NCBI GenBank assembly: GCA_032622095.1
Contig: CP136066.1
Coordinates: 96,121,319-96,185,318, forward strand
From: Siphonodentalium dalli
Taxonomy: Eukaryota > Mollusca > Scaphopoda > Gadilida > Siphonodentaliidae
Length of the DNA: 64,000 bases
Direction: 5' to 3'
The notes beneath the pieces are model-generated. The model did no database searches, was not told the DNA's origin, and saw only the letters and a program-made list of their open reading frames with translations. Position numbers and translations under genes: made by a program. The stretch's first letter is position 1. Each line of letters starts with the position of its first letter. Shown piece by piece: positions 44,964 to 62,345 of the stretch.

Positions 44964-45257
44964 AGTAGTAATGGTGGGCACTATGGCCCAGTACCCCCCC
45001 AGACATGGGCACTATGGCCCAGTACCCCCCCAGACATGGGCACTATGGCCCAGTACCCCCCAGACATGGGCACTATGGCCCATGGGCCATAGTGCCCATG
45101 TCTGGGGGGGTACTGGGCCATAGTGCCCATGTCTGGGGGGTACTGGGCCATAGTGCCCATGTCTGGGGGGTACTGGGCCATAGTTCCCACCCTGAGGATA
45201 GATGTTCCTGTCATTGATGTGACATTTCTGATCGAAAAAATGAAAATGGACTTAGAA
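44964..45257 (+). repeat. Polinton left terminal inverted repeat
   Basis: It matches the inverse of 61880-62173 almost throughout, including GATAGATGTTCCTGTCATTG and TCGAAAAAATGAAAATGG at the inner end. Its outer 230 bp are a palindrome of their own. About 3.3 direct 31-bp units (GGGCACTATGGCCCAGTACC and a C run, then AGACAT) are followed by the same units inverted, with the centre at about 45082. Confidence 0.95.
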
Positions 45258-45333
45258 TTATTTTTTTCAAAAGGAAAATCTCACTTTGGAAAATATCAAT
45301 TAGCTATCAAGAGTATCTTTTCGATCATTTGGT

Positions 45334-45349
45334 GGCCCTGAAAAGGGCC
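45334..45349 (-). terminator. histone-type 3' stem-loop after the OTU-like gene
   Basis: Read on the minus strand: GGCCCTTTTCAGGGCC preceded by AAAAC and followed by ACCAAA. It has a perfect 6-bp stem and a UUUC loop, the form of the metazoan histone mRNA 3' end bound by stem-loop-binding protein. It lies about 20 nt after the stop codon. A purine-rich GAAAAGA follows 10 nt on, where a U7-binding element would be expected. Confidence 0.8.
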
Positions 45350-45368
45350 GTTTTATTTTTGTTATAGT

Positions 45369-45833
45369 TTAGAATCCGCCACATTGAACTTCTTTGTTCG
45401 CCAAAACTTCAATTGATTTGTCTCCTCGCCTCATCCATATTTCGCATTCACAATAATGCTCGTGGCAAACGTGGGGGATCCACACTAGAGGTATTGTTGA
45501 CTTGAATCTTGGTGTTGATTTGTAGCCGCCTTTGGTAGCATCAAACATGACGATAGGTCGCTGTATAACAGTCGCCGCTAATTCAACCATCAATCTTGAT
45601 TCGGCCAAAAGTGGTGTGCGCCGTAAATCTTGTGCCGACGCACCAAGTTCGTCACTCTCTGCGTAGTACAGGTCAACTGCCGCATCTCTCAGAATCATCC
45701 ATCCATCGGTCGTCCCGTAAATTTCGAGGCTGAGTGCCCTCCAAAATAGCGATATTTCTTCACCGTACACTGCTTTACAGTATACCCCACCGCCCATTAT
45801 CTCGTCAAGATCTGTTATGTTTACAGCAGTCAT
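45369..45833 (-). CDS. OTU-like protein, probable Cys-less cysteine-protease fold
   Basis: Polinton accessory gene of 154 residues. Residues about 24-53 (SLFWRALSLEIYGTTDGW and on) resemble the start of OTU deubiquitinase domains (x-C-L-F-R-A-L-S...YG-T-x-D). Residues about 79-95 (ESRLMVELAATVIQRPIV) resemble the E...A..L.RPI strand region. IPLVWIPHVCHEHY resembles the C-terminal I-x-L...HY histidine region. The usual catalytic Cys position appears to be Ser, with a Trp inserted after it, so it may bind ubiquitin without cutting it, or be inactive. It starts MTAV, as does the partner small gene at 47709. Its stop is followed about 20 nt on by a histone-type stem-loop. It shares a bidirectional promoter with ORF A. 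The family call rests on motif pattern only. Confidence 0.5.
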   Translation of the reverse strand: MTAVNITDLDEIMGGGVYCKAVYGEEISLFWRALSLEIYGTTDGWMILRDAAVDLYYAESDELGASAQDLRRTPLLAESRLMVELAATVIQRPIVMFDATKGGYKSTPRFKSTIPLVWIPHVCHEHYCECEIWMRRGDKSIEVLANKEVQCGGF

Positions 45834-46735
45834 CTTTGAATGTAGAATAAGTCTGAAGATCCGTCTTGAACATATATCACGATTGCGCGGGCGGTAGAGA
45901 AAGCATATAATACTTTGACGTTAAAAATGACAAATGTTCCCTGACGTTGTTTCTTTTCAGTGCATTATCTGTTAGTTTCACCATTTCGATATGTTATAGA
46001 TTAAATTCATGATAGTATATACAATTAATTAAGATGTTTTAACATATGAATTCATCTTCGTTCATAAACGATGACCAAGTAAAGTTATCAAATGCAATGA
46101 TCAAGAAAAATGTTCAGTATGTTTCTTGTGTTCAGTTTTTATGTATAAAATATGTACAATTCCAAAACCAAAAACTAGAAAAACATTCCATATTTGCCTA
46201 ACGAGGTAATAAATATATCAATCATGTGTACCAAATAATAGATAATGATCTAACGAAATTAAAAACATTTGTTTGATCGCTATGCAATAATGATCAAGAA
46301 AAATATGCATGTTGATCCGGTTCTGAAAAAACACAACGTCAGGAAATATTTGTCAATTTTAACGCCAAAGTATTATGTGATTTCATTGACGCCCGTGTAA
46401 CAATCTTGTGTTCAGTTTTATGTATAAAATATGTACAATTCCAAAAACAAAAACTAGAAAAACATTCCATATTTTCCTAACGAGATAACAAATATATCAA
46501 TCATGTGTACCAACTAATAGATAATGATCTAACGAAATAAAAAACATTTGTTTGATCGCTATACAATAATGATCAAGAAAAATATGCATGTTGATCCGGC
46601 TCTGAAAAAACACAACTTGAGGAAATATTTGTCAATTTTAACGCCAACGCGACATGTGATTTCATTGTCGCCCGTGTCAAATGTATACAAATATTTTCGA
46701 ATTTGATCAACCTTACATTGCATTGCTATCAAGAG
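45834..46735. promoter_or_regulatory. bidirectional promoter module P1 (OTU-like <-> ORF A)
   Basis: It begins at the OTU-like ATG with CATCTTTGAATGTAGAATAA and is homologous to module P2 at 47710-48313. Inverted elements flank it: TACTTTGACGTTAAAAATGA at about 45911, and TTTTAACGCCAAAGTATTAT at about 46357. A further TTTTAACGCCAACGCGACAT lies at about 46636 because the right 280 bp are tandemly duplicated (46119-46393, 46398-46674). TTTGGCG/CGCCAAA resembles the E2F site. Direction and activity are inferred from gene positions. Confidence 0.55.
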
Positions 46736-47071
46736 ATGGATCCGTTAACAGAATTTCTTCAGAGTGAGATATACAGTAATCCTGTTGCACAGAATACATA
46801 TGCGGCACCACAGTCAACAGGCCAAGCTAATACGACAATGACTATAGGTGGTGATACACTCATTTTAAAAGCGATTTTAGATGAACTGAGATGTCTTCGC
46901 AGGGATATTGACGTGAAAACGCAAGTAACGCATCAAGAAGTGAAAGTGAATCTTCATTTCGTTGCAGAAGAGATAGATATACCAATCAGGGTTCATGATG
47001 TTCAGAGATCGAAAGAGCAGAAACAGATCAAAAAAGAAAAAATTATTGGCGGTGAAAGAAAAACAACCTAA
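46736..47071 (+). CDS. Polinton accessory ORF A (unknown function)
   Basis: The first ATG of the open frame (MDPLTEFLQSE) gives 111 residues. Residues about 28-60 (TTMTIGGDTLILKAILDELR) may form a helix or coil; the rest is charged, with a Lys-rich end. Another frame (46995-47219) continues for about 60 codons of similar Lys-rich sequence and stops about 20 nt before the histone-type stem-loop at 47242. That spacing matches the other genes of this cassette. The natural protein may therefore run into that frame, with a +1 shift at the A-rich run near 47028-47043, by mutation or programmed slippage. No homologue is known to me. Confidence 0.55.
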   Translation: MDPLTEFLQSEIYSNPVAQNTYAAPQSTGQANTTMTIGGDTLILKAILDELRCLRRDIDVKTQVTHQEVKVNLHFVAEEIDIPIRVHDVQRSKEQKQIKKEKIIGGERKTT

Positions 47072-47241
47072 GAGTATCATGAAGGCTGAGACAAAAGTCA
47101 GATTTCATCTTCCTTGTAAAGAATCTAAAGATACAGAGAAAAGTGATGAATTCGCAAAAGCTCTCGGTTCTCATGGGAAAGATATGTCAAGATATAAGAA
47201 AAACACAAAACGGTGTTAAAGTCAGATGATAATTTTAAAAC

Positions 47242-47257
47242 GGCCCTTTTCAGGGCC
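47242..47257 (+). terminator. histone-type 3' stem-loop after ORF A
   Basis: GGCCCTTTTCAGGGCC, preceded by AAAAC and followed by ACACACATTTCCC. The downstream CCCAAAAGGTTACTCTTTCA is the same as after ORF B (48724). Confidence 0.8.
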
Positions 47258-47467
47258 ACACACATTTCCCAAAAGGTTACTCTTTCATAGCTGAAAAATC
47301 AAAACACGATTGTTCAATTCATATTTTATTCAACAACAAATATTTGCAAGTATATTTTGTTTTAAATTATTCGTGGCGTAATTTTTTCAAAACGAAACAT
47401 AGGGTACAAGGAACATTATTAGTTCTTAAGCAAATGCTAAAAGTTTTTCTTTTTGAAAAAATTGGTT

Positions 47468-47483
47468 GGTCCTGAAAAGGACC
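47468..47483 (-). terminator. histone-type 3' stem-loop (distal) after the 58-residue gene
   Basis: On the minus strand: GGTCCTTTTCAGGACC, preceded by AAAAC and followed by AACCAA. The second stem pair is T-A instead of C-G and remains fully paired. This compensated change supports selection on structure. Confidence 0.7.
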
Positions 47484-47496
47484 GTTTTTTGTTTTT

Positions 47497-47512
47497 GGCC
47501 CTGAAAAGGGCC
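47497..47512 (-). terminator. histone-type 3' stem-loop (proximal) after the 58-residue gene
   Basis: On the minus strand: GGCCCTTTTCAGGGCC, about 20 nt after the stop at 47533. Two such hairpins in a row follow this gene. Confidence 0.75.
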
Positions 47513-47532
47513 GTTTTGTACGCCATCAAAAT

Positions 47533-47709
47533 TCACTCCCCATTTTTCTCAGAGTGCGAATTTTGCTTTTGTCCCCCCGCTGTTCTTTTTTGCACGATCA
47601 GCTTTGAACGCGCGGTCACTTCTCTTGCGTGCCTGTCCCACATTATCTGCGGTGTTAGCCCCCTACTTCCTCCCAGTATCGCCATCAAGGGTTCGGGTAT
47701 TGCAGTCAT
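47533..47709 (-). CDS. 58-residue accessory protein (unknown function)
   Basis: A small minus-strand frame runs MTAIPEPLMAILGG...SEKNGE, 58 residues, basic in its second half (ARSKLIVQKR). It is supported by position rather than homology. Its ATG sits at the edge of promoter module P2 exactly where the OTU-like ATG sits in P1, with the same CATCTTTGAATG junction and the same MTA start. Its stop lies 20 nt before a histone-type stem-loop. It may be a truncated or replaced remnant of the first gene pair. Confidence 0.5.
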   Translation of the reverse strand: MTAIPEPLMAILGGSRGLTPQIMWDRHAREVTARSKLIVQKRTAGGQKQNSHSEKNGE

Positions 47710-48313
47710 CTTTGAATGTAGAATAAGTCTGAAGATCCGTCTTGAACTTGTATTACGATTGCGCGGGCGACAATGAAATCACATAATACTTTGGCGTTAA
47801 AATTGACAAATATTTCCTGACGTTGTGTTTCTTTTCAGTGCATTATCTGTTAGTTTCACCATTTCGATATGTTATAGATTAAATTCATGATAGTATATAC
47901 AATTAATTAAGATATTTTAACATATGAATTCATCTTCGTTCATAAACGATGACCAAGTAAAGTTATCAAATGCAATAATCAAGAAAAATGTTCAGTATGT
48001 TTCTTGTGTTCAGTTTTTATGTATAAAATATGTACAATTCCAAAACCAAAAACTAGAAAAACATTCCATATTTGCCTAACGAGGTAATAAATATATCAAT
48101 CATGTGTACCAAATAATAGATAATGATCTAACGAAATTAAAAACATTTGTTTGATCGCTATGCAATAATGATTAAGAAAAATATGCATGGTGATCCGGTT
48201 CTGAAAAAACACAACGTCAGGAAATATTTGTCAATTTTAACGCCAACGCGACATGTGATTTCATTGTCGCCCGTATACAAATATTTTCACTTTTTCAGTG
48301 AACTTCATTCATT
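47710..48313. promoter_or_regulatory. bidirectional promoter module P2 (58-residue gene <-> ORF B)
   Basis: Homologous to P1 over about 550 bp (GATCCGTCTTGAAC, GTTAGTTTCACCATTTCG, AACATTCCATATTTGCCTAA). It is framed by inverted elements: CGGGCGACAATGAAATCACA with ACTTTGGCGTTAAAATTGAC (47766-47805), and its mirror GTCAATTTTAACGCCAACGC with ATTTCATTGTCGCCCG (48230-48275). Each half points outward to one gene about 40-80 nt away. Confidence 0.6.
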
Positions 48314-48679
48314 ATGCCGTCTTTAAAGAAATTTATCAAGAATTTGTGGAGGAAGAGAGATTCGTCAGAGGAGACGGAGATAAAAAGATATAGGAAATGG
48401 CAGGATTCTCCTGAACAAAAGATAGTTCAGAAGCAGATGCTAAGAGATTTTCTGGCTCGGCGACGACCATCGCCTGAAGTATGTGATCAAGAATCAAGCA
48501 ATCAAGAATCAAGCAATCTTGATCTCGTGGAGATCTTGTCACAGATCAAGAAGAAAGATATGTGCAATGCAGCAATTGACAGCTTCGCTCAGGCTGCTGC
48601 AGCGCACAGATCAAATCCTACTTGGTCTGTGACAATTAATCCCAACGGGATATATCCTGATTTGGCAGAATTTTTATGA
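48314..48679 (+). CDS. Polinton accessory ORF B (unknown function)
   Basis: 121 residues from ATG 48314. The first 17 residues are strongly basic and could form an amphipathic helix (MPSLKKFIKNLWRKR). A doubled NQESSNQESSN-type repeat lies in the middle. The Ala-rich AQAAAAH stretch precedes an aromatic end (WSVTINPNGIYPDLAEF). There is no transmembrane segment. It is driven by module P2 and ends 20 nt before a canonical histone-type stem-loop with the classical ACCCA flank. I do not recognise a family. The basic N terminus suggests membrane or nucleic-acid contact, but that is inference. Confidence 0.65.
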   Translation: MPSLKKFIKNLWRKRDSSEETEIKRYRKWQDSPEQKIVQKQMLRDFLARRRPSPEVCDQESSNQESSNLDLVEILSQIKKKDMCNAAIDSFAQAAAAHRSNPTWSVTINPNGIYPDLAEFL

Positions 48680-48698
48680 ATTCTGGAAAAGAAAAAAC

Positions 48699-48714
48699 GG
48701 CCCTTTTCAGGGCC
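48699..48714 (+). terminator. histone-type 3' stem-loop after ORF B
   Basis: GGCCCTTTTCAGGGCC preceded by AAAAAAC and followed by ACCCAC. The hairpin, loop and 3' ACCCA agree with the metazoan histone consensus. It lies 20 nt after the stop codon. Confidence 0.85.
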
Positions 48715-48782
48715 ACCCACATTTCCCAAAAGGTTACTCTTTCATAGCTGAAAAAAACAAAACACGATTGTTCAATTCATAA

Positions 48783-48788
48783 TTTATT
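48783..48788 (-). terminator. polyadenylation signal of the zinc-knuckle gene
   Basis: AATAAA on the minus strand, 38 nt after the stop at 48826. This gene faces ORF B and uses an ordinary poly(A) signal, unlike its neighbours. A homologous but gene-less AATAAA copy lies at about 47325. Confidence 0.55.
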
Positions 48789-48825
48789 CACACAACATAA
48801 TTTTCAAATGTTTGTATCGATTCGT

Positions 48826-49407
48826 TTATCTGTTTTTTGGAATGTAGAATGGTCTCAGCTTCTTTTTCTTGGAAGTTTTCTTGGAATTTTCAAAATCTGG
48901 ATGTTTATCTTCAGATTTGTTCTGTGAATCATTCGTAGGATCAACAGGTCGGGGTTGTTTGAAAACATCTGATGTTGTAGACATCTCTTCAGTTTTGATA
49001 TCTGCATTTTGTTCTTGTATTGTTACTGCTTGTAGACATTTTTGTATAGTTTTCACATTTTTTTTGTCGCCGAAATCTGTTTTACAATGGAAGGACCAAT
49101 GGGATTCTTGTCCGCATTTGTAACAGTAACCATATGGCGGTTTCCAATTTTTATCAGCTTTGTTTTTCTCTTGTTTCTCTTGCCATTGCATTTTGTTACA
49201 AAGTTTAAACAAATTGGTAGAGATCTGTCTCAATTCGACAAGATTATCTTGAATTTTTCTAGTCTTTGGCTGTGTAAATTTTTTTGAATCTTCTTTATGT
49301 AGCTCAATATAGCTCTCTTCAATAACTGCAGGCCTTGGTCTTTTTCTAACAATATCTTCTTCGCTGGTGGCGTCGTCTGAAACAGGTCTTTTAATTCTCT
49401 TAAACAT
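48826..49407 (-). CDS. CCHC zinc-knuckle protein sharing its leader with PolB
   Basis: 193 residues from ATG 49407 (MFKRIKRPVSDD). Residues 1 to about 31 form a basic/acidic leader with nuclear-localisation-like RKRPRP, identical in sense to the PolB leader because the DNA is an inverted repeat (49312-49466 / 49532-49687). A single CCHC knuckle (C-x2-C-x4-H-x4-C, CYKCGQESHWSFHC) lies near residue 95, as in retroviral nucleocapsid proteins that bind single-stranded nucleic acid. The C terminus is Lys-rich (KKTSKKKKLRPF). It is transcribed away from PolB from a shared palindromic promoter. A role in replication as a nucleic-acid-binding partner of PolB is a reasonable guess. Such a gene is not part of the usual Polinton core set. 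Confidence 0.7.
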   Translation of the reverse strand: MFKRIKRPVSDDATSEEDIVRKRPRPAVIEESYIELHKEDSKKFTQPKTRKIQDNLVELRQISTNLFKLCNKMQWQEKQEKNKADKNWKPPYGYCYKCGQESHWSFHCKTDFGDKKNVKTIQKCLQAVTIQEQNADIKTEEMSTTSDVFKQPRPVDPTNDSQNKSEDKHPDFENSKKTSKKKKLRPFYIPKNR

Positions 49408-49438
49408 TTTTGTCTTGAGTTTTGTCAGCAAAAAATAT

Positions 49439-49560
49439 TGCGACTGGCTTCTTCGGAGTTGAAGTGCTTTTATAGCATTTTCATCGCGAATGCTATAAAA
49501 GCTATAAAAGCAGGTGTAATTCTACACTTTAAACTTCAACTCCGAAGAAGCCAGTCGCAA
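49439..49560. promoter_or_regulatory. palindromic bidirectional TATA promoter (zinc-knuckle <-> PolB)
   Basis: Inverted arms (49439-49466 and 49532-49560, ACTTCAACTCCGAAGAAGCC) flank a 65-bp core. The core has TATAAAAG on the minus strand at 49467-49474, and on the + strand at 49494-49501 and 49503-49510. The central part is GCATTTTCATCGCGAATGCT. Transcripts in both directions would begin with nearly the same sequence. Confidence 0.7.
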
Positions 49561-49689
49561 TATTTTTTGCTGACAAAACTCAAGACAAAATTGTTTAAGA
49601 GAATTAAAAGACCTGTTTCAGACGACGCCACCAGCGAAGAAGATATTGTTAGAAAAAGACCAAGGCCTGCAGTTATTGAAGAGAGCGAT

Positions 49690-52600
49690 ATGGAAACTGA
49701 TGAGGCAGAAAGTGAAGAGAGCGATATGGAAACTGATGAGGCAGAAAGTGAAGAGAGCGATATGGAAACTGATAGGGCAGAAAGTGAAGAAAGTTCTAGT
49801 GATGGGCAGATTGGACGCGGTCGAAGACAGAATAGAGAAATTGGTGGGAAGAGAAAGAGAAGTCTGGCTAGAGAGCGTGTTGTGTTCAATCCAACAAAAT
49901 ATTTCAAATTGGAGCTGAACTCGGAGAAATTTTCCAGAAAATTTAAATCAGCATCACGACAATTTGGTGTGAAATTCGAGAAATTTACAGATCCAATCGA
50001 AAACATTCCAGAGATATTTGAGAAGTTGACAGAAGAATTGAAACAGAAATGTTCAGCAAATGAGAAGACAAGAATCAGAGTTACGATAAATCATCCAGGA
50101 CTTGATATGAGCATTTTCATTCCATTCACAAAAGCCAGTGAATTGAATGGTGGGACACTCATGGATAATATTCAAAATGTGGTTCAATCAAATGCAGACT
50201 TTACAATTCATGACGGTGCACTCAATTTCGAAATCTTCGTTACAGATATTCCGGAAGGTGGTACACGACACTCACTACATTATGGACCATTTGCAGACAA
50301 GAACAAGCTGACAAAAGTAAAAAGAAGTATTGTCCGGATTGAAAATGCTGATGATGTTATGTGTATGGCAAGATCTATTGTCGTCGGAATGTGTAAGGCA
50401 GATAGTGATGGATCTGCGTGCTGGTCAAAGAAATGGAAAAGAATAAGACAATCAATATACACAGCACAAACAGATGCAGCAAAAAATCTACTCAACCGTG
50501 CTGGCATTCCACACGATACAGTTTGCAGTATCAATGAGTTCCACAAGATTCAAGAAATATTGTATCCAGAATATGTTGTGAAAATTCACAATGAATTTGC
50601 TGGCGCTGGATTTCTATTTGAACCTGCAGAAATGTGTTCGGAGAGCAAATGTGTACACATCTACTACAACAACAATCACTTCGACACCATAACATCAATC
50701 AAAGGATTTCTAGGCACCAGCTACTACTGCGAATTCTGTGACATTGGATTCCATATGCGTGGCGATCATCGATGCAGATTTGTTTGTGCATGCTGGTCAT
50801 TGACACAGTGTAATTTCACAAATTGGGTGAAGTGTAGAACGTGTCGACGATCATTCAGAAGTAAATCTTGTTTCGACAACCATTTGAAGACGGAAGGAAA
50901 ACAGAAAAGAAAAATATGTGATTTGGTTCAACTATGCAACAATTGTGATGAAGAAATTCTCATCAATAAATCAAGCAGACATATATGTGCGGGGTTGAAG
51001 AAATGCAAACATTGCAAAGAAATCGTTGAAGCAGATCACAGGTGCTACATTCCAAAATATGAATCACCGGAAAAGAAACCTGCAAAGATTCCATATGTAT
51101 TCTTTGACTTTGAATGCAGACAAGACACAGGTGTTCATATTCCAAACTTCTGTGTTGCACATACCGCTTGTGGAGATTGTATGTGCAAACCAATCGAAGA
51201 AAAATGTGAAACATGCGGACCGGATTCCAGAGAATTTGTATTCAAGGGTGACAACGTTTTAACAGACTTCACAAACTGGTTATTCCACCAAGATCACAAA
51301 GGATGTGTTGCAATAGCACATAATGCTCAGGGATACGATGCACAGTTTCTACTTCAAGCACTCATACAAAGTGGAATTCATAAACCAGAACTGATCATGA
51401 ATGGAAACAAGATTCTCAGTTTAAAATGCAACAGCGTGAAAGTTATTGATTCTCTGAGTTTTCTGATGATGCCGCTTTCAAAGTTTCCACAAACTTTTCA
51501 GCTGAATGAGATGGCGAAAGGACACTTTCCACATTGGGCGAATTCACCAAAGTTTCAAAATTACATTGGACATTACTTGGCTTCTGATTACTACAAACCA
51601 GACATGATGAGCGTGGAAAATCGAGAGAAATTCTTTGAATGGTACAATGAGAAAATAGAAAATTACGTGATATTCAACTTCCAAGAAGAGATGGAGAAGT
51701 ACTGCAAATCAGACGTGGATATTCTTCGCCGTGGATGTGGAAAATTCAGGAAATACATATTGGAAACAGAACAGATTGACCCGTTCATTGAGTCAATAAC
51801 ATTGGCGCAAGTTTGCAATTTGGCATGGAGGAAGAATTCAATGCCAGAGAAAACAATTGGAATCATTCCAGATGGTGGATACCCATGTGCTAAAAACTAT
51901 TCCATGAAAGCGATACGTTGGCTTCAACATATATCATTGTCACGTATGATAACAATCAAGCATGCTTTGAATGGAGGAGAAATCAAGATTGGTGGACACT
52001 ACGTCGATGGATATGAGGAAGCCACAAGAACAGTTTTTGAGATGAATGGATGTCTGTTTCATGGATGTCCAAAATGTTACAACAACAGACAATACAAGAA
52101 TCCCTATACGATGCTCACCATGGAAGAATTATATACAAGAACTCAACAGAAGAAAGATGAACTGGAATGTCTTGGTTACAGAGTTGAATCAATTTGGGAG
52201 CATCAGATCGACGAAAGAATGAAATCGGATGTGAAATTCAAACAACAAATGGAATCTTTCTACAAACATCGAAACCCCATTTTGCCAAGAGAAGAATTGT
52301 TTGGTGGACGTACAAATGCCATCAAATTGTACGAGGAAATTGATCAAGATTCCACAAAAGAAATCAAGTTCATCGATGTGTGTTCGTTGTATCCATTTTG
52401 CAACAAATATAAATTCTACCCTGTTGGACATCCAGAAATTTTGAGCCAAGAGCAGATCGATCAAGAACACATTAGAGACTATGCGGGGCTTGTTAAATGT
52501 ACAATTTTACCACCATCGAAATTGTATATTCCAGTTCTACCGATTCATTGTAACAAGAAAATGGTTTTTACTCTGTGCAACACTTGTGCCATCAATGAGA

Positions 52601-53611
52601 ACGAGGCATGTAACCATTCAGAAGAAGATCGAGCTATAACCGGAGTGTGGACCACGCCAGAATTATTCAAAGCAATGGATGTTGGCTACAAAATACTTGA
52701 TGTGTACCAAATTGGCATTGGACAGATTGGACAGATGAAATATACAAATCCTATATCGACAAACATCTAAAGATCAAACAGGAATGTAGTGGTTATCCAT
52801 TTGGTGTTGAGACAGAAGAACAGAAGCAAAAGTTTGTACAGGATTATTATGCAGCTGAGGGTATAAAATTGGAGAACATCGAGAAGAATCCAGGAAAACG
52901 CCAAATATCTAAAATTATGATTAATTGTATATGGGGTAAGAATGCACAAAGAAATCTTATGTCAAAAACAGAGTATGTGGATAAGCCATCACGTTATTTT
53001 GAATTGCTTACTAGTAACAATATAATTGTTCAAAATGTTACACTTCTTGATGGTGACAAATTCATTCTGGTAAATTATGTTGATATTTTAGATAATATTG
53101 AACCTCATCATTCAGCAAATGTTGTTGTTGCTTCTTTTGTTACAGCGTATGCAAGATTACAATTGTATAAAGTTTTTAAAAAACTTGGAGATAGAGTGCT
53201 GTATTTTGATACAGACAGCTGTATGTATGTCAGTGATCCATCAAAGAAGAACATCAAAACTATCGAAGGAAGATTGGGGAAATGGAGCGACGAACATCCA
53301 GATGCAAAGATTGTCAAATTTGTTGGACTTGGGCCAAGAACTACGGATATGAATACATCAAAGATGGGAGAAGATACACCAAATGTAAGGTAAAAGGTAT
53401 CACACTTGATTACAGCACAAGTCAAAAAGTTAATTTTGAAACAATGGTACAATGTGTTAATGATCGTGAAAATTTCAAAACTGTTGTTGAGTATCCTTCC
53501 AGAATTAAAAGACAAAAGAACCATCAACTAATTAGTGAGTGTCAAACCAAAACTTTCAGATCGGTGTACACAAAACGAAAACTCGTCAATGGTATTCACA
53601 CATATCCATAG
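49690..53611 (+). pseudogene. polB: protein-primed DNA polymerase B, two frameshifts
   Basis: Replicates the element from a protein primer. The frame is open from 49438 to 52770, but the ATG that starts the sister leader (zinc-knuckle gene) is TTG here (49591); the first in-frame ATG is 49690. A 12-residue acidic repeat (ESDMETDEAESE) occurs three times at 49681-49788. A Cys/His-rich region (50630-51050) precedes the exonuclease: Exo I DFE at 51106, Exo II NAQGYD near 51325, Exo III YCKSDVD near 51700. Palm motif A (DVCSLYP) is at about 52374. The frame then shifts near 52725 at a tandem ATTGGACAG. Motif B (NCIWGK) is at about 52920 and motif C (FDTDS) at about 53206. A second shift occurs near 53330, and the end is at 53611. 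Both shifts fit single-base losses (or sequencing errors). All catalytic residues remain. Confidence 0.9.
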
Positions 53612-54230
53612 GGATGGAGATGTTGAGTCATTTCATGTCAAGATGTTGACAGGAGTAGTACCTCCAGAAATTGCTGAGAAGATTTATGGATATTTGGTGG
53701 CACAGTCAACACTTATTCCAGAGATAAAGAAGGAATTACAAGAAGTCTGGTTTGAAAGAGAAAAGAAAGCAATACTACGATGCTGTGATGTCGACGAATG
53801 TTTACAGAGATTGGACTATCTTGAGACAAGTATATTTTCTCATTTCTCTCAAAACTATATTAAATCATTTATTAAATTCAAAACATTTTTTCTCATTGAA
53901 AGAATATCTGATTTTTGGCTATTTGGTGGTGATCAACACCATTTAGATTTAGAAACTTTTGATGAACATGACTATATTCATTATACAAAGTATGGAGATC
54001 ATTATCCTCTTGCTAGTGGAACCTTTAAATCAGTTCCTAGGATCTATGGGTATTTGTTAACAAAAAAAATGTCAACATATGCAAAAATTCAAAACATTAT
54101 AGGGGATGATTTTTTTATTTACAGAACAAACAGAAGAATAGAAGACTATAATAATTGGATTATTGAAATGTATGGAAATATTTACAGCTTTGGAGATTTC
54201 TCTTTAAAAACTAAATTCACACGTCGTTAA
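53589..54230 (+). CDS. conserved-position Polinton protein, unknown function
   Basis: 213 residues from ATG 53589 (MVFTHIHRDGDVESF); the upstream open part has no ATG. It overlaps the end of PolB by 23 nt. It begins with a beta-like segment, then a helical KIYGYLVAQSTLIPEIKKEL...RCCDVDECLQRL region, then an aromatic-rich half (FWLFGGDQHHLDL, EHDYIHYTKYGDHYPL). There is no recognised domain. Its place between PolB and the packaging ATPase suggests a replication or packaging role, which is inference only. Confidence 0.6.
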   Translation: MVFTHIHRDGDVESFHVKMLTGVVPPEIAEKIYGYLVAQSTLIPEIKKELQEVWFEREKKAILRCCDVDECLQRLDYLETSIFSHFSQNYIKSFIKFKTFFLIERISDFWLFGGDQHHLDLETFDEHDYIHYTKYGDHYPLASGTFKSVPRIYGYLLTKKMSTYAKIQNIIGDDFFIYRTNRRIEDYNNWIIEMYGNIYSFGDFSLKTKFTRR

Positions 54231-54263
54231 GTTCACTCTCTGATTAGGCATCAAAGTGACAAC

Positions 54264-54914
54264 ATGGAAGAATCTTTACTTTTCCAACATCCGTGTAATT
54301 TCTTTATCAGCGGACCTAGTGGATCAGGTAAAACAGAATTTGTTAAAAAAGTTATTGAATTTAAACACGATTTATTCCAAACACCACCAAAGAAAATAGT
54401 TTGGTGTTACAAAGAATGGCAAGACACATACAATCGTATAAAAGAAATTGATAACGTTGAGTTTATTGATGGCATTCCAGACGATGATGAGGAAATTGTA
54501 TCAGATAAATCATTTCCTCATCTTGTTGTTTTCGATGACATGATGGGGGAACAAGATGAAGACAAAATAATGCTTTGGTTTACTAGAAAAGGTCATCATC
54601 GAAATGCTTCAATAATTTACATTACTCAAAACATGTTCCAAAAATCAAAAAGTAGCAGAACTATAAGTTTGAATGCACACTACATGGTTTTATTTCAAAG
54701 CGTTCGAGATAAAAATCAAATAAAAGTTTTGGCTCATCAAATGCAAACCAATCATTTGAAACAAGCATACGAAGATGCAACTTCAATAAATCATGGATAT
54801 ATTTTAGTAGATTTTCATCCTAGAACAGAAAATTATTTGCGAATTAGAACTGATATTTTCCATAAATGGTTGACAGCTAATGACCGAGGTCCTGTCATTT
54901 ATTCAAAAGTATAA
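54264..54914 (+). CDS. A32/FtsK-HerA-type genome-packaging ATPase
   Basis: 216 residues, the usual size for Polinton ATPases, which are thought to drive DNA into the capsid. Walker A is GPSGSGKT (17-24), Walker B is LVVFDDMM (87-94), and the sensor strand is IIYITQN (117-123). The arginine-rich TRKGHHRNASI segment between them fits the HerA/A32 family. It starts at ATG 54264, 33 nt after the preceding gene. The frame is intact. Confidence 0.92.
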   Translation: MEESLLFQHPCNFFISGPSGSGKTEFVKKVIEFKHDLFQTPPKKIVWCYKEWQDTYNRIKEIDNVEFIDGIPDDDEEIVSDKSFPHLVVFDDMMGEQDEDKIMLWFTRKGHHRNASIIYITQNMFQKSKSSRTISLNAHYMVLFQSVRDKNQIKVLAHQMQTNHLKQAYEDATSINHGYILVDFHPRTENYLRIRTDIFHKWLTANDRGPVIYSKV

Positions 54915-54948
54915 ATTCAGTTGTTGTTACTTTTTTCATTTTAGAACC

Positions 54949-55536
54949 ATGTCGTCCACCGAGATGTTTAGTCATGATGAACTGTCACAAATTATAAATT
55001 TCTTCACTTTTGCAGCTGAATTATTTCTTGAAAATGATTGGAAATTACCATCACAGACAAAAAAGTTTTTTCAGAGAAATAAAAATGTTCTTAAAAAAAT
55101 CTCTGATCGATCAACTGATATGGAAACAAAACGCAAATTAATTTTACAACGAGGTGGTAGTGGGTTCCTTGGGGGAGTTTTAATTAGAAGTCTTTTGAAA
55201 AATTCATTTGAACAAACTGGTAGACAATCTAAAAGTAAATCAAAGGTTTCTCCAAAACGTTCAAAGATTACACTGATGCAAACACAACAAAGGGGTAATC
55301 AAAAAGAATCTAAACGTAAAACAAAGCTTTCTCTAAATCATTCAAAGTTTACACCGATGCAAACTCAACAAAATCAACATTCTAAATTTACACCTATACC
55401 TTCTCAGCAGAACCCTCAACATCAACCGTTACAAAAAAAACCAGTTATTGATCTTGAATTTTCTAAATTTATGCCGTTGTCTGATGCATCGAAATCGGCA
55501 TTCGAAGCTTTAGAATGGTTCAATCAGAAAAGATAA
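54949..55536 (+). CDS. basic Gly-Gly-motif protein (capsid accessory, pX-like?)
   Basis: 195 residues from ATG 54949 (MSSTEMF). A helical N-terminal half ends in LILQRGGSGFLGGVLIRSLL (about 68-87), a Gly-Gly motif next to a short hydrophobic helix. Such motifs occur in virion precursor proteins cut by adenain-type proteases. The C-terminal half is basic and contains three to four copies of an SK(F/I)TPMQTQQ-like repeat. The composition fits a DNA-binding or scaffold component of the particle. The role is inferred from composition and context. Confidence 0.55.
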   Translation: MSSTEMFSHDELSQIINFFTFAAELFLENDWKLPSQTKKFFQRNKNVLKKISDRSTDMETKRKLILQRGGSGFLGGVLIRSLLKNSFEQTGRQSKSKSKVSPKRSKITLMQTQQRGNQKESKRKTKLSLNHSKFTPMQTQQNQHSKFTPIPSQQNPQHQPLQKKPVIDLEFSKFMPLSDASKSAFEALEWFNQKR

Positions 55537-55592
55537 AAGATGAAACATATAATTTTTCTGCTCATTTTGAGACAACTACTTAGACTGTGAAG

Positions 55593-55955
55593 ATGCCTTC
55601 AAAAACTAAGAGCCGGAAAGTACCGCTGATAAAAAAATATGTGGAGTTGATTGTTGCAATGAGTAAAGTTCCATCTGCATATAAAAAGAAAATGATCAAC
55701 GATGCTCCGAAACAAGTGATGGATTGCATTTCAGAATGTTGTCAAAATCTTTTAAAAGTTAATGTAAAACTGAATGAAGCTCAGAACCGCAAGTTACATT
55801 CGAAGCGTAAACATGTCAGATATCTTGCAGACAAGAACAAACCTTTGCAACAAAAGAAGAAAATTTTGAATCAAAAAGGTGGCTTTTTACCATTATTATT
55901 TCTTGCTCCATTGATTAGCAAAACATTAGGTGCAGTTGTTAAAAATATTTTGTAA
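55593..55955 (+). CDS. basic Gly-Gly-motif protein 2 (virion accessory?)
   Basis: 120 residues from ATG 55593 (MPSKTKSRKVP). The Lys-rich N terminus and centre are followed by KKKILNQKGGFLPLL and a hydrophobic C-terminal helix (FLAPLISKTLGAVVKNI). The GG motif followed by a hydrophobic segment parallels the preceding gene, so the two may be an old duplicated pair or share the same processing protease. It lies 56 nt after the previous stop. No enzyme motif. Confidence 0.55.
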   Translation: MPSKTKSRKVPLIKKYVELIVAMSKVPSAYKKKMINDAPKQVMDCISECCQNLLKVNVKLNEAQNRKLHSKRKHVRYLADKNKPLQQKKKILNQKGGFLPLLFLAPLISKTLGAVVKNIL

Positions 55956-55975
55956 AAACTAAATCTCAAATAAAT

Positions 55976-56698
55976 ATGAAGAAAATGGTTATTGTACCAT
56001 TCAGAATGTTGGAAGATTTCAAACAATGGAAAATGTCAGAAATGAATAAACCTCAATTACCTCCTGATCCTGCAATTTCAAATGTTTCAGATTCTTACAA
56101 AGAATTGAAATCAGTTTATGATAAAAATATTTCTGAATCAGAAAAGTCACAGTTATTTGAAGAAAATTTGTACAAATTGAAAACTTCACAAAAATCTTTA
56201 AATTCAAAATTCAGTTTACCTGAACAAAGGTTATCTGAAAACTTTGGGAACATGAGTGAACATATATTGGAAAGTGTTCCATCTAAACTTCGTGGTAAAG
56301 CACAACAAATTTTAACATTGTTGTCAACTAATCCTAAACTTAGATGGGATGATCGTGGACAATTAATTTATGGAACAGAAACAGTTACGGGATCAAATAT
56401 AATTGATTTGATAAACGATGTTGTTCGTCACCGAAAAGGTTTTGACCCAGTTGGTTATGAAACATTCCTACGTGGATTGGGGGAACTTAATGTACCACAA
56501 GATTATGTAGGTAACAGGAATCGATGGTTGTGGATACAAAGACATTTAAAAGAAGGTCACACTGGTGATGAGTTTCATACACATCATGCAACTCCTAGCA
56601 GTGGCAAGTCAAGAAAACGTTCAGTTGATATTTTCACACCTCAAAGTTTTCCTAAAACCAGAAAATCTATTTTGAAAGAATGGTCCCCACTTACATAA
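55976..56698 (+). CDS. conserved Polinton protein of unknown function
   Basis: 240 residues. The N terminus (MKKMVIVPFRMLEDFKQW) is followed by a coiled-coil-prone Lys/Glu/Ser-rich part. The central core has SKLRGKAQQILTLLS, then LRWDDRGQLIYGTETVTGSN and VGYETFLRGLGELNVP. A basic tail holds a GKSRKRS motif. The RWDDRGQL...GSNIIDL core resembles uncharacterised proteins often encoded beside the integrase in metazoan Polintons. Its end overlaps the integrase start by 19 nt. The function is not known. Confidence 0.6.
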   Translation: MKKMVIVPFRMLEDFKQWKMSEMNKPQLPPDPAISNVSDSYKELKSVYDKNISESEKSQLFEENLYKLKTSQKSLNSKFSLPEQRLSENFGNMSEHILESVPSKLRGKAQQILTLLSTNPKLRWDDRGQLIYGTETVTGSNIIDLINDVVRHRKGFDPVGYETFLRGLGELNVPQDYVGNRNRWLWIQRHLKEGHTGDEFHTHHATPSSGKSRKRSVDIFTPQSFPKTRKSILKEWSPLT

Positions 56699-57774
56699 AA
56701 TTTGACAAACTTCTAACTGAAATTTACTACAATCCAAAAGAAGTTGGTGGTTTCAGTGGAGCAAATCAACTTTTTTAAAATGCGAAAGAAACAAATAACA
56801 AAATTAAACTTTCAGATGTTAAAAAATGGTTACAATGGCAAAAAACATACACTTTGCACAAACCAATTGTTCGGAAATTTCGCAGATGTAAAACTATTGT
56901 TGCAGGAATTGATATTCAGTGGCAAGCTGATTTGGCAGATTTGCAAACTTTGCAAAAGCACAATGACAATTACAGATATTTACTTTGTGTTATTGATGTG
57001 TTCTCAAAATTTGCATGGGTTGAAAAAATTAAAGACAAAACTGGTAAAACTTTAGTTAAAACATTTCAGAAAATTCTCAAATCATCAAAACGAAAACCAG
57101 TTTCATTTCAATCTGACAAAGGTTCAGAATTCAAAAATAAATTATTTTTACAATTTTTTAAATCTAAGAAAATTCATTTTTTCACAACAGAGAATCCAGA
57201 GACAAAAGCAAGTATAGTTGAACGTTTTCAACGGACATTGAAAACAAAGATGTGGAAATATTTTACACATAATCAAACTTTGAAATACAATGATGTTTTG
57301 CACGATTTTGTGAATTCTTACAACAAAAGTGTTCATAGAAGTATTAAGATGGCACCAGTTTTAGTAACTCGAGAAAATGAAATTGAAGTTTCCAGAAATC
57401 TTTATGGAAAGTTAAAAACGAAAAAAGATAAGATCTTGAAAGTTGGAGATTTTGTTAGAATAAATAAAACAAAGAGAACTTTTGATAAAGGATATCTTCC
57501 AAATTGGACAAAAGAAATTTTCAAAATTAGTAGAGTTTGTAAAAGTACACCATTAACTTACAAATTAGTAGATTTAGATGGTGAAAACATCGCAGGATCA
57601 TTTTATGGTAAAGAAATTCAACATATAAAAGATAATAAAGTTTACGAAATTGAATCAGTTGTTGGTAAACGTTCAAGAAAAGTTGCTGGTAAATCAGTTA
57701 GAGAAATTAAAGTTCATTGGGCTGGTTATCCTAAAAAATTTGACAGTTGGATACCTGCCACAAATTTGGTATAA
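56680..57774 (+). pseudogene. int: retroviral-type integrase with chromodomain, one in-frame stop
   Basis: Inserts the element into host DNA. Counting from ATG 56680, a TAA (56776-56778) interrupts codon 33; the same frame then runs open to 57774. The catalytic triad is D84 (IQWQADLADL), D146 (SDKGSEF) and E181 (ASIVERFQRTLK), with the DD35E spacing. A C-terminal chromodomain (KVHWAGYPKKFDSWIPATNL) could target histone marks. There is no ATG between the stop and the catalytic core, so the downstream part would need readthrough or non-AUG initiation. The stop falls in a T6A4 run and looks like a simple substitution. The rest appears well conserved. Confidence 0.9.
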
Positions 57775-57784
57775 AACTTTTAAC

Positions 57785-58048
57785 ATGTCTCAAAATGGTT
57801 CAGTTGATCTGGATGCTCCATCACAATTTCAAATCTGTGGAGAAAAAATTGCAAAAAATCAAGTAACATATTTTACACAAATTATTATAATTGTTGGTAT
57901 AATCGCTACAGCAATTGTTCATTTAAGTTTACAAAGTGAAAATAACGAACTGTGGTTAATTTTACTCAGTAGTTCTTTGGGATACATTTTACCAACACCG
58001 CGTTTGAAATATTTGAAAAATCAGTCGACAGAAATTTTGAAAGTATGA
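57785..58048 (+). CDS. small two-helix membrane protein
   Basis: 87 residues from ATG 57785 (MSQNGSVDLDAPSQ). Two hydrophobic segments, about 31-51 (IIIIVGIIATAIVHLS) and about 57-71 (LWLILLSSSLGYI), are separated by SENNE, giving a hairpin topology. Similar short membrane proteins lie before the penton gene in other animal Polintons. Its TGA overlaps the next ATG (ATGA). A role in assembly at membranes or in exit is a guess. Confidence 0.6.
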   Translation: MSQNGSVDLDAPSQFQICGEKIAKNQVTYFTQIIIIVGIIATAIVHLSLQSENNELWLILLSSSLGYILPTPRLKYLKNQSTEILKV

Positions 58049-58896
58049 ATCCTTTCTACATTACAATTCCGAGCGACAGTTCAATGGTAATGTATCCAAA
58101 CAATTCTCAATGTTGTTTTACTGTACAATTACCAAAACCAATTCAAATTGATAAAGAAAAATGGGAAGTTGCATTAGTCGAACTGATAACACCTTCAGAA
58201 ACATACAATGTTACAGGGGATTCGTGTAAATTCAATTTGATTACAACTGATGCAATAATACTGTCTGTTCTTCAAAATCGTTTTGAAGAAAAGATATTTA
58301 CGAGACCTGATGGCGTTCGTGCAATTGAAATACAGATACGAGAAGGTTCGTATACCTCTGCGACAGATTTACTTGATACAATGCAAGATGTAATTGATGA
58401 AACACTTGGAGAAGCAATGCAAAACGAATACGGATTTCACATCAAGTACTCAAAAGTTACAAAACGTGTGAAAATTATTCGCAAGAGTTTACGTATCCCA
58501 AAACTAGGAATTGAATTACCACAATGTCTTTTGCACAAGTTGGGTTACAAAACTGAAAACGCTTCTGAAGATTTTTATTCAAATAGTAGATTTCCGTTTG
58601 GTGTAGATTTGTTTGTTGGTCATAATCAAATGTTTGTTTATTCTGATATTGCTGATTTCACAATTGTTGGAAATGTTGAAGTACAAATTTTACGAGTTGT
58701 TTCTTTCAGAATTAAAAGAGATATCGACGGATTACATGTAAAACATGAATTTTTAAATTTACATTATGTTCCAGTTTCAAAGTCATACTTTGACAAAATT
58801 AGTGTAAATATAAGTGGCGACACAGGAAAATCAATTCAGTTTATTGGTGGTAAGTCTTTGGCGAAGCTGCATTTCAGAAAACGAGAGGAGTTCTAA
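58045..58896 (+). CDS. minor capsid protein (penton, single jelly roll)
   Basis: 283 residues, forming the pentameric vertices in the adeno-like virion model. The start has YPNNSQCCFTVQLPKPIQID followed by KWEVALVELITPSETYNV, a signature of Polinton minor capsid proteins (ligand-like WEVAL...P strand). The beta-rich remainder and the GLHVKHEFLNLHYVPVSKSY end agree. It overlaps the membrane-protein gene by 4 nt and precedes the core and capsid genes. The frame is intact. Confidence 0.85.
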   Translation: MNPFYITIPSDSSMVMYPNNSQCCFTVQLPKPIQIDKEKWEVALVELITPSETYNVTGDSCKFNLITTDAIILSVLQNRFEEKIFTRPDGVRAIEIQIREGSYTSATDLLDTMQDVIDETLGEAMQNEYGFHIKYSKVTKRVKIIRKSLRIPKLGIELPQCLLHKLGYKTENASEDFYSNSRFPFGVDLFVGHNQMFVYSDIADFTIVGNVEVQILRVVSFRIKRDIDGLHVKHEFLNLHYVPVSKSYFDKISVNISGDTGKSIQFIGGKSLAKLHFRKREEF

Positions 58897-58901
58897 AAAC
58901 A

Positions 58902-59276
58902 ATGTTCCCCGTGTATAGAGGTGTACCACGGCAATATGGTAACGGTATTGGTTCAATTTTCAAATCACTTATGAGATCTGCTGTACCATTTCTAAAACCG
59001 ATTGGTCGGACAGCTTTACAACTTGCGAAAAAACACACTTTTGGTGTTGCAGATGAAATTATTAATCAAGGTAAAAGTCCGAAAGAAGCGTTGATGTCTG
59101 AAGGTAAAAAAGCTTTAAAATCTTTTGGAACACAAGCTAAAAATCAAATTTTGAACTCGAGACAAAAACCTAGAAAAAGAGTAGCGAATTCAAAAATGAA
59201 TCATTCAGCTGTCAAACGCCGAAAAAGTCGGTCGAAAAAACATCCTAGCAGTCGAGCTCTTGATATTTTTGATTAA
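58902..59276 (+). CDS. basic virion core protein, pX-like
   Basis: 124 residues. It starts MFPVYRGVPRQYGNGIGSIF, the Y-R-G...R-Q-Y-G-x-G-x-G-S-x-F pattern seen next to capsid genes of metazoan Polintons and compared with adenovirus pX. An amphipathic middle (AVPFLKPIGRTALQLA) is followed by a strongly basic tail with RKRVANSK and KRRKSRSKK, which fits DNA condensation. Gaps to both neighbours are only 5 and 2 nt. Confidence 0.7.
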   Translation: MFPVYRGVPRQYGNGIGSIFKSLMRSAVPFLKPIGRTALQLAKKHTFGVADEIINQGKSPKEALMSEGKKALKSFGTQAKNQILNSRQKPRKRVANSKMNHSAVKRRKSRSKKHPSSRALDIFD

Positions 59277-59278
59277 TC

Positions 59279-60583
59279 ATGGCACAAATGGTAAATGGAT
59301 CATGCGAATGCAATAAATCGGAACTTGATATAACACATGTTCCACCAAACGTGGCTACAATGTCAGAATCGCAGTGGATCGAAAATCATCCGATTGCACC
59401 GCTGAATAATTCTGCTCCGATAGAGTTTGTCATACCATCTCAAACCGAAAAGTGGACAGATATTAATCAATCTTATCTTTATGTGAAATTCAAAATTACA
59501 AAAAAAGATGGAACTAATTTGTTAGCTGGTACGGAATTAGCACCTGTTAACAATTTCTTTCATAGCATGTTCAGCAGTATCGATGTTTACTTGAACAACA
59601 AATTGATAACTTCGAATTCTGACACTTACCCATACCGAGCATATTTCGAAAATCTGTTGGGATACTCTCCAGAATATAAAGATAATCAATTAGCAAATTT
59701 AGAAATGTGGTATGGCGATACAGCAGAACAATTTGAAGAGAATACCAAAGGTGGTGGCAATGCTGGATTAACTTCTAGAGAAAGTTTGATCGGTGGTAGT
59801 AAAATTGTTGAACTATGTGGACGCTTACACACTGATCTGTTTCTTCAAGAAAAATATTTACCAAATGGAATTGAAATTCGTATCAGATTAAACAGATCAC
59901 CATCAAAATTTTGCCTCATTGGCGCCGAGGATGGACAAATTGTTTTCGAATCAGCAGTGTTCCATGTCAGAACAGTTAGTCTCTTTCCAGCGGTCTCAAA
60001 TAAATTAAATCAAGAAATTGTCCAGTCAAAAATGAAAATACCTATCAGACGAGTAGAAATAAAAACTTTCACAATTAGTACTGGACTTAGATCAAAAATT
60101 GAAGACCACTTATTTCAAGGACAATTACCAAAGAGAATTTTTATTGCGTTGGTCGAAAATAAAGATATGAATGGAGATTTGGGTACCAATCCATTCCACT
60201 TCAAACATTTCAGTTTGAATAAATTGGAAGTTAGTCAAGACGGTCATACAATACATAACCGTCCATTTGAACCAAACTTCGCAACAAAACAATGTCTCAG
60301 ATCATATTTATCTTTGTATCAATCTTTAGGAATGTTTGGTGTTAACAAATCAATTGGCATTAATTTAAAAGAATATATGAATGGTTATTGTTTGTGGGGT
60401 TTCGACTTGACACCGGACCAAGGAAGTGACGAGGGACATCTACATCCTATAAAGACAGGGAACCTGCGTTTGGAGCTTCAGTTCTTGACAGCTCTCACTA
60501 CAGCCGTCAACGTTTTGGTGTATGCTGAATTCGACAGTGAAATAGAGATCACAGCTTTGAGAGAAGTGCTTACTGACTATTAG
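59279..60583 (+). CDS. major capsid protein (double jelly roll)
   Basis: 434 residues, the hexon-like trimer building the virion facets. A Cys-containing N terminus is followed by PIEFVIPSQTEKWTDINQSY, then PVNNFFHSMFSSIDVYLNNK and YPYRAYFENLLGYS, all typical of Polinton/adintovirus capsid proteins. The end LRLELQFLTALTTAVNVLVY-AEFD is also typical. Length is close to other family members and no break is seen. ATG 59279 follows the core gene by 2 nt. Confidence 0.93.
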   Translation: MAQMVNGSCECNKSELDITHVPPNVATMSESQWIENHPIAPLNNSAPIEFVIPSQTEKWTDINQSYLYVKFKITKKDGTNLLAGTELAPVNNFFHSMFSSIDVYLNNKLITSNSDTYPYRAYFENLLGYSPEYKDNQLANLEMWYGDTAEQFEENTKGGGNAGLTSRESLIGGSKIVELCGRLHTDLFLQEKYLPNGIEIRIRLNRSPSKFCLIGAEDGQIVFESAVFHVRTVSLFPAVSNKLNQEIVQSKMKIPIRRVEIKTFTISTGLRSKIEDHLFQGQLPKRIFIALVENKDMNGDLGTNPFHFKHFSLNKLEVSQDGHTIHNRPFEPNFATKQCLRSYLSLYQSLGMFGVNKSIGINLKEYMNGYCLWGFDLTPDQGSDEGHLHPIKTGNLRLELQFLTALTTAVNVLVYAEFDSEIEITALREVLTDY

Positions 60584-60584
60584 G

Positions 60585-61034
60585 ATGGAGTTCACATCAC
60601 AGCTATGGAACTACTATGAAGAATACCAACGTTCACAAAACTTTGCTCCGAGATGGAACCTGATCTTGGACACACTCAACAATGCTATGATTGAAGAACT
60701 ACAAGAACTTATTCGCAAGGAAGTGTCAGCAAACTGTGAAGGATGTAAAATAGAACATCCTAGTCAACGTGAACATGTTCTGTGTTTGTTCTCTACAACT
60801 GATGATTGGACAAACCAGTTTATCGACTTAGCGCTGATTATATACAATGTTATGGAAAGATGGTTCCCGAAGCTGATAGGGTTAAACCCACACTGCAAGG
60901 AGAAGTTCGAAGCATTCATCATGTGGGATCATCTGAGAAACAGTTTGGAGCTCAACCGCAAAAAATTCGACGCAGAGTGGACTCTGATGTGGTCACAGCG
61001 AGTCAAAGAGAATAACAACGATGCAGACAGCTGA
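60585..61034 (+). CDS. conserved Polinton protein with C-x2-C/H-C motif
   Basis: 149 residues from ATG 60585. It is helical, with a CEGC-x4-HPSQREHVLC motif at about 51-66 that could bind a metal ion, then DWTNQFIDLALIIYNV and a Trp/charged C terminus. Similar proteins lie between the capsid and protease genes in animal Polintons; their role is unknown. One nucleotide separates it from the capsid gene, and it overlaps the protease by 14 nt. Confidence 0.65.
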   Translation: MEFTSQLWNYYEEYQRSQNFAPRWNLILDTLNNAMIEELQELIRKEVSANCEGCKIEHPSQREHVLCLFSTTDDWTNQFIDLALIIYNVMERWFPKLIGLNPHCKEKFEAFIMWDHLRNSLELNRKKFDAEWTLMWSQRVKENNNDADS

Positions 61035-61494
61035 ACTTCAATATATTCTGGACAATTCCTGGTTGTGTAAACTTAACACACATGTTTGTGCTAGAGATCT
61101 GTTACCAGAGAAGAAACCACAGCATATTCAAGCATATATTGTGAACACGCACTCATCGGATCAGCCAGGAGAACACTGGACATTGATGTTATTCAAGGGA
61201 AGATCAGCTGTATACTTCGACTCATTTGGACTACCACCACCGAGACGATATATGTTACCATTCATAAAAAGGAACTCATCAGCATGGACTATGAATACAA
61301 CACGATATCAACATCGTGCGACAAATGTGTGTGGATTATATTGTATATTCGCACTCCACCACATGATGAAAGGAAAGAGGATGAAAATATTATTCAATTC
61401 TCGGGATTTCTTCAAGAATGACAGAACAATAGTTCGATGGTTTGGAAAGCACTATGGTCGATTATACAGAAAAGCAAATTTGCTGCTGAATTAA
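61021..61494 (+). CDS. adenain-like maturation cysteine protease (peptidase C5)
   Basis: 157 residues, cutting capsid precursors during maturation. Candidate catalytic residues are His52 (GEHWTLM), Asp67 (YFDSFG), Gln97 (RYQHRA) and Cys104 (NVCGLYC), in the order H-D/E-Q-C of the adenovirus enzyme. ALHHMMKG and a basic RLYRKAN end follow. It is shorter than adenain (about 200 residues) but normal for Polintons. It is the last gene of the + strand block and is intact. Confidence 0.9.
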   Translation: MQTAELQYILDNSWLCKLNTHVCARDLLPEKKPQHIQAYIVNTHSSDQPGEHWTLMLFKGRSAVYFDSFGLPPPRRYMLPFIKRNSSAWTMNTTRYQHRATNVCGLYCIFALHHMMKGKRMKILFNSRDFFKNDRTIVRWFGKHYGRLYRKANLLLN

Positions 61495-61879
61495 ACTTCA
61501 CCAGGACATCGACGGCTGATATACATACAACGCAAAGAAGACGACGACCAGATAACAACGAATGTGTCAACAACTCCACAAAATAGACTCTTTTGTTATT
61601 GATTCAGCGTAGGATCTTGTAGGATGTTGTAGGATGTTCAATTAAGTTTCTTCAAATCTGAGACCTTGTTTTGTACATAAATTATTGTTCTTTGTTAATA
61701 TTATTGATGTATAATAATATATTATTGTTCATTGTTCTTGTTCTTGTTTTTGAAAAATAAATGATAAATTTCAACAAAATCGTTTTCACTGTAGGACCCC
61801 CACCAATTGATTCTGTTCGTGTCGATGTGTCATCTCTGGTCAGAATTATACAAACTTTAAATTAATAATGAAAAAAATG
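61495..61879 (+). other. 3' region of the Polinton late block
   Basis: AT-rich non-coding DNA with a tandem GTAGGATGTT word near 61610. An AATAAA lies at 61756-61761, a candidate poly(A) signal for the protease or for a longer transcript. The right terminal repeat follows. Confidence 0.45.
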
Positions 61880-62173: not shown

Positions 62174-62345
62174 CCCGCGCTATGTATGTAGCTGTTCCCC
62201 CATGCTGCTCTATCACCATACCAAATAACAAACATCTGCCAAGCGGTTGCTGAACAATAATGCAAAATGTTTGTACGGACGTACGTACGGACGGACAGAG
62301 ACATCGACTATATACCCGCCGACTTCAAGTCGGGGGCATAATAAA
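62174..62345 (+). repeat. host target repeat (right part)
   Basis: It starts with the second CCCGCG, continues CTATGTATGTAGCTGTT...CACCATACCAAAT...AATGTTTGTACGGACG like the intact unit at 44786-44895, and ends CGACTTCAAGTCGGGGGCAT, a short terminal palindrome. Confidence 0.75.

Follow-up and report, generated by a model that had tools for sequence, protein, structure and literature searches.

Histone-type 3′ stem-loops behind four non-histone genes of a Polinton in a scaphopod genome

Four small accessory genes of a Polinton in the scaphopod mollusc Siphonodentalium dalli are followed by hairpins of the kind that ends replication-dependent histone messages in animals. The element lies in a 64-kb stretch, called the window throughout (GenBank assembly GCA_032622095.1, contig CP136066.1, positions 96,121,319 to 96,185,318). 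We propose that its five hairpins are working histone-type 3′-end signals, through which the gene module would use the host pathway of stem-loop-binding protein (SLBP) and U7 small nuclear ribonucleoprotein (snRNP). From comparisons of sequence we put the probability of this reading at roughly 0.78. Since the same hairpin closes the messages of host histone genes, the four genes, here named A to D, are probably processed as histone messages are.

The 16-mer GGYCCTTTTCAGGRCC is present in five exact copies, as a preliminary description of this DNA had counted: hairpin A at 45334-45349(-), reading GGCCCTTTTCAGGGCC, hairpin B at 47242-47257(+), the tandem pair D2 at 47468-47483(-) and D1 at 47497-47512(-), and hairpin C at 48699-48714(+). 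No further copy with up to three mismatches was found in the 64 kb. In 100 shuffles of the window, the mean number of matches at this tolerance was 0.63 and the maximum 3, none of the 100 reaching five; together with the scores of the Rfam histone 3′ stem-loop model (RF00032), this rules out a chance origin. The covariance search with that model, proposed in the preliminary description, placed four of the five hairpins above the gathering score: C with 40.8, B with 40.1, A with 37.8 and D2 with 37.1 bits. Each of these matches spans all 46 model positions, with E-values from 1.4e-8 to 3.4e-7.

All five hairpins stand on the coding strand of the preceding gene, in agreement with the earlier claim. 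The distance from the stop codon is 19 nucleotides (nt) for gene A (45369..45833, minus strand, 154 amino acids, aa) and gene C (48314..48679, plus strand, 121 aa), and 20 nt for gene D (47533..47709, minus strand, 58 aa). The spacing of 15-25 nt reported for four genes therefore stands in the window for A, C and D; the frame of gene B (46736..47071, plus strand, 111 aa) stops 170 nt ahead of its hairpin. For B, the claim holds solely outside the window: in the element copies L009 to L011 the gene is a 162-aa frame, and in L009 its stop lies 22 nt ahead of the hairpin. Behind gene D, D1 comes first and D2 follows 13 nt past it. We also looked behind 14 other frames of the element and found no 16-mer within 400 nt of any of them.

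The flanks also resemble those of histone genes. The trinucleotide AAC immediately precedes the stem in all five cases, as had been described. The ACC- or ACA-type 3′ flank was found at three: ACCCA at C, ACACA at B and ACCAA at A, with AACCA at D2 and AAAAA at D1. An A-rich downstream element, a candidate U7 site, can be placed behind A (45309..45333, minus strand), B (47258..47281, plus strand), D2 (47442..47467, minus strand) and C (48715..48738, plus strand). The first lies within the RF00032 match; those of B and C are delimited by the model match and by comparison with a host histone array, and that of D by the model match and its likeness to the end of a host H2B gene. D1 lacks a separate element of this kind. 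Between D1 and D2, one stem pair is exchanged at both partners (C-G versus T-A), so the compensated GGTCC/GGACC form noted earlier is indeed present at 47468-47483.

We then compared these ends with those of the host's own histone genes. A genome search with RF00032 (2.23 Gb in 9 contigs) gave at least 75 scored matches outside the window; the number is a lower bound, because these are the scored ones out of 409,530 first-look candidates. Two tandem arrays on contigs C5 and C8 account for 63 of them. Frames were listed for five array pieces, and their H4, H2A or H2B genes close with the very same 16-mer, flanked by AAC ahead and by ACCAA or ACCCA behind. Host H2A and H2B are followed by the downstream element CCAAAAAGATAAACT or CCAAAAAGAGAAACT, and H4 by a different A-rich stretch. 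The remaining 12 of the 75 matches lie at 11 fetched places outside the arrays, all of them copies of the window's Polinton. A candidate host SLBP was found as well: matches to its domain (PF15247, cut-off 27 bits) lie at two adjoining places on C2, with 60.6 and 31.4 bits.

A 4.7-kb stretch of the histone array, aligned to the window, matches all five hairpin sites, in alignments that consist largely of stem: 55 bp at 85% for D2, 44 bp at 91% for C, 45 bp at 87% for A (hairpin plus flank, 45318-45361), 38 bp at 92% for B and 25 bp at 100% for D1. Elsewhere in the window it matches five places, all to the left of base 19,900 and outside the Polinton. The same stretch has no match in nine pieces of other Polintons. 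The D2 site (47433-47487) corresponds to the end of a host H2B gene with an E-value of 1.2e-11, and its flank behind the stem is as similar to H2B or H2A in 0 of 1000 shuffles, even without its first five bases. Likewise, the A flank of copy L012 was equalled against host flanks in 1 and 0 of 1000 shuffles; these tests comprise 63 comparisons and are uncorrected. The D2 end likely descends from host histone ends; for the others, descent from histone genes and shared constraint cannot be told apart by such comparisons.

The likeness to animal replication-dependent histone genes as captured by RF00032 extends from the 16-mer of host H4, H2A and H2B to the A-rich 5′ flank, the ACC-type 3′ flank, the A-rich downstream element and the short, intron-free genes. 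There are differences as well. Genes A to D are borne by a mobile element and are not histones: as had been stated, no histone family of Pfam matches gene A, gene B (in its 111-aa frame) or gene C, the three that were scanned. Their hairpins lie 19-22 nt past the stop, whereas those of the host histone genes read lie 29-35 nt past it, and gene D has two hairpins in tandem.

In the mechanism that we propose, host SLBP would bind the hairpin of the A, B, C and D pre-mRNAs and U7 snRNP the A-rich element behind it; the cut would fall a few nucleotides past the stem and leave a message without poly(A) tail. For histone messages, SLBP is described as binding the stem and, with U7 snRNP, recruiting cutting factors that include CPSF73, and the messages as destabilised at the end of S phase (PMC5706932). 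By analogy, messages of A to D would be abundant mainly in S phase, and would be made and removed separately from those of the core genes, which are without the signal. Such timing would fit an element with its own DNA polymerase that is copied in the nucleus. The ends themselves may have originated from host histone genes.

Copies elsewhere in the genome allowed us to follow the hairpins further. The alignment holds 55 hairpins from 12 copies (the window and 11 others), with 11 rows per cassette; copies were found via the hairpin, and matches below 200 bases were dropped. The fetched stretches lack C in L010 and L011, B and D in L014, and A in L017, which has two C cassettes. Hairpins occupy corresponding positions in these hairpin-selected copies, so that their absence from sister elements, named earlier as a possible refutation, was not observed. 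The stem is fully paired in 51 of 55 hairpins, and four contain wobble steps: six pairs are intact in 10/11 rows for A, 10/11 for B, 11/11 for C (one wobble), 10/11 for D1 (one) and 10/11 for D2 (two). The wobble step between C-G and T-A is observed in L018. Two of the copies, L010 (C9:52.18 Mb) and L011 (C9:52.39 Mb), are very much alike, oppositely oriented and separated by about 0.2 Mb, and have no C hairpin in the fetched stretches.

Several observations weigh against the use of the histone pathway. D1 reaches only 23.4 bits against the RF00032 cut-off of 34, four of the 55 hairpins are broken, and the second SLBP match on C2 has an in-frame stop. The Rfam U7 model has no match in the host genome, nor in any of 14 control genomes, which makes the result uninformative. 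Four distant Polintons, their accessory regions mostly missing, have no such hairpin. Without their first five bases, the flanks of A, B and C in the window are equalled by 51 to 833 of 1000 shuffles. Conservation is overstated as well, because it was the hairpin that led to the copies; the D downstream flank varies less (8/122 columns, 2.0% mean difference) than the two D hairpins (2.7%), and at A the coding side (1.7%) is scarcely more variable than the hairpin (1.1%).

These last figures leave room for a passenger, that is, a histone 3′ end that entered the element as a copy, was doubled together with the gene pair and has spread unused with a young family. The family is indeed young: a 101-bp piece spanning hairpin A is identical in all 40 of its scored copies (of 498 candidates), the window's included. 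The contrast between hairpin and flank is also small for A, B and C: hairpins differ by 1.1% at each gene, upstream sequences by 1.7, 3.0 and 3.4%, and downstream sequences by 7.1, 4.5 and 2.7%. An unused relic is nevertheless unlikely, as stem, strand and spacing are kept at four genes whose downstream flanks are unlike each other. Moreover, the region upstream of the D hairpins differs by 18% on average (52/131 columns variable) against 4/32 columns in the hairpins, and D1 and D2 are distinguished by an exchange of both pair partners.

Another possibility is that polyadenylation ends most messages of these genes, with the hairpin as an accessory signal at best. This would agree with the AATAAA that begins 12 nt past the stop of gene A, right ahead of the stem and itself a point against histone-type processing, but no AATAAA or ATTAAA lies within 400 nt behind the window frames of B and C, and we regard poly(A)-led or mixed ends as distinctly unlikely. 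It is very improbable that the hairpins serve otherwise, whether as a transcription stop between convergent genes or in DNA replication or recombination: B and D do converge, as do C and a neighbouring zinc-knuckle-like gene, but A faces no other gene within the element, and strand, spacing, loop, flanks and downstream element all match host histone ends. In favour of histone-type processing, as first suggested for this DNA, stand the RF00032 matches, the identical host 16-mer, the similar downstream element, the SLBP-domain matches of the host and the recurrence in other copies.

The module consists of two pairs of divergent genes: A and B, and D and C. Their intergenic regions (45834..46735 and 47710..48313), likely divergent promoters, are 95% identical over 572 columns and share a second tandem piece; because of this identity, one pair probably arose through duplication of the other pair's surroundings. 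The arrangement resembles that of paired histone genes. It is conceivable, at a little short of an even chance, that the module as a whole stands under the host's programme for histone messages and yields its proteins only during host DNA replication. From layout alone we infer that A to D act early. The proteins themselves gave few clues: no family match was found for A or C, a PDB sequence search with A returned chance-level matches only, and its single-sequence fold, with a mean predicted local distance difference test score (pLDDT) of 35, was useless.

The carrier is a Polinton of 17.2 kb (44964..62173), called so because of its family B DNA polymerase (PolB), A32-type ATPase, chromo domain, probable adenain-like protease and inverted ends; in this it resembles the animal Polintons (Mavericks, adintoviruses). 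Inverted ends and a 6-bp target duplication are Polinton features. The ends, 44964-45269 and 61869-62170, agree at 97% over 307 columns, the right one continuing three bases to 62173. CCCGCG stands at both borders (44958-44963 and 62174-62179) and is likely the target duplication. The earlier identification as a Polinton is thus borne out by gene content and ends. The element sits within a host repeat; a further, uninterrupted unit of this repeat lies just to the left (44786-44895).

All identified core genes are on the plus strand. The leading PolB frame (PF03175) spans 49690..52770, followed by the packaging-type ATPase (54264..54914, PF04665), a chromo-domain protein (57250..57774, PF00385) that is probably the end of an integrase, assigned by place only, and a 434-aa protein (59279..60583). 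The latter has no Pfam match and 1004 homologues, and is taken as the major capsid protein by its place; the named animals among its best 120 homologues are bivalves, for example Mercenaria mercenaria with 63% identity. Last comes the probable adenain-like protease (61021..61494, PF00770), with 20.2 bits just below the cut-off of 21.3. The window's copy is damaged: PolB is in pieces, and the gene B frame is shorter than in L009 to L011. Between module and core lies the gene with a zinc-knuckle-like stretch below the Pfam cut-off (48826..49407, minus strand, 193 aa); it has no hairpin, and AATAAA lies 38 nt past its stop. Between this gene and PolB there is a 162-bp inverted repeat of 98% identity (49304-49465 and 49533-49694), and the two oppositely directed genes begin with identical coding words.

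A PF03175 search of the host genome (69 of 1596 candidates scored) revealed further PolB groups, with frames near 952 and 1312 aa. There was no hairpin in two pieces (13.8 kb) around one 952-aa PolB gene, nor in three 4.5-kb stretches, partly perhaps host DNA, upstream of 1312-aa PolB genes; the 1312-aa group proved not to be the window's own family. The four distant relatives came from a capsid-alignment search of genome contigs, on contigs filed under bacterial genomes. No relative was confirmed in IMG/VR by capsid, ATPase or capsid alignment. The hairpin pattern did match four contigs there, each time within a long frame of a phage-like contig, which we judged to be chance. As far as seen, the histone-type hairpin is therefore a trait of the window's family and not of Polintons at large, since the pieces of the two other host groups and the four distant relatives are without one.

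In the literature searched, which covers few subscription journals, no earlier account was found of genes with histone-type ends in Polintons or other DNA viruses, in keeping with the preliminary description's statement for Polintons. Papers combining Polinton, histone and stem-loop concern other matters, by their titles and the opening of their abstracts. To our knowledge, the SLBP/U7 pathway in animals is held to serve histone messages almost exclusively, and this would be the first known mobile element or DNA virus with such ends on non-histone genes. If true, the pathway can be captured so that other genes are expressed in step with S phase and without poly(A) tails. This would point to a way in which a Polinton senses host DNA replication, and would provide natural non-histone substrates for work on SLBP. 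The proposal makes a sharp prediction, namely that tail-less transcripts end a few nucleotides beyond stems of known position. A parallel is offered by adomaviruses, animal DNA viruses that borrow from the histone system and are described as encoding a histone-like protein, Histoid (PMC11071296); there the protein is histone-like, whereas here only the RNA end is.

In L065 (C2:222989000-222995900), from another Polinton group of the host genome, a PC4-like protein (1681-2334(+), PF02229, 4e-15) is followed by a TATA-binding protein (2346-2870(+), PF00352, 3e-32), with protease-, capsid- and integrase-like frames adjoining. A gene for a TFIIB-like protein (L030:5700-6395(-), PF00382, 1.5e-8) lies in a distant Polinton whose contig is catalogued as part of a Rickettsiaceae genome. 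Together, these finds suggest that several Polintons carry initiation factors of RNA polymerase II. Animal Polinton pieces in records filed as bacteria (L027-L030 and P0046), several of them titled as tubeworm or bivalve symbionts, are probably contamination by host DNA. Finally, near-identical integrase-like frames occur near a 952-aa PolB (L065:6130-6864(-)) and near a 1312-aa PolB (L067:2491-3225(-)), so these two groups may have parts in common, or one may be nested in the other.

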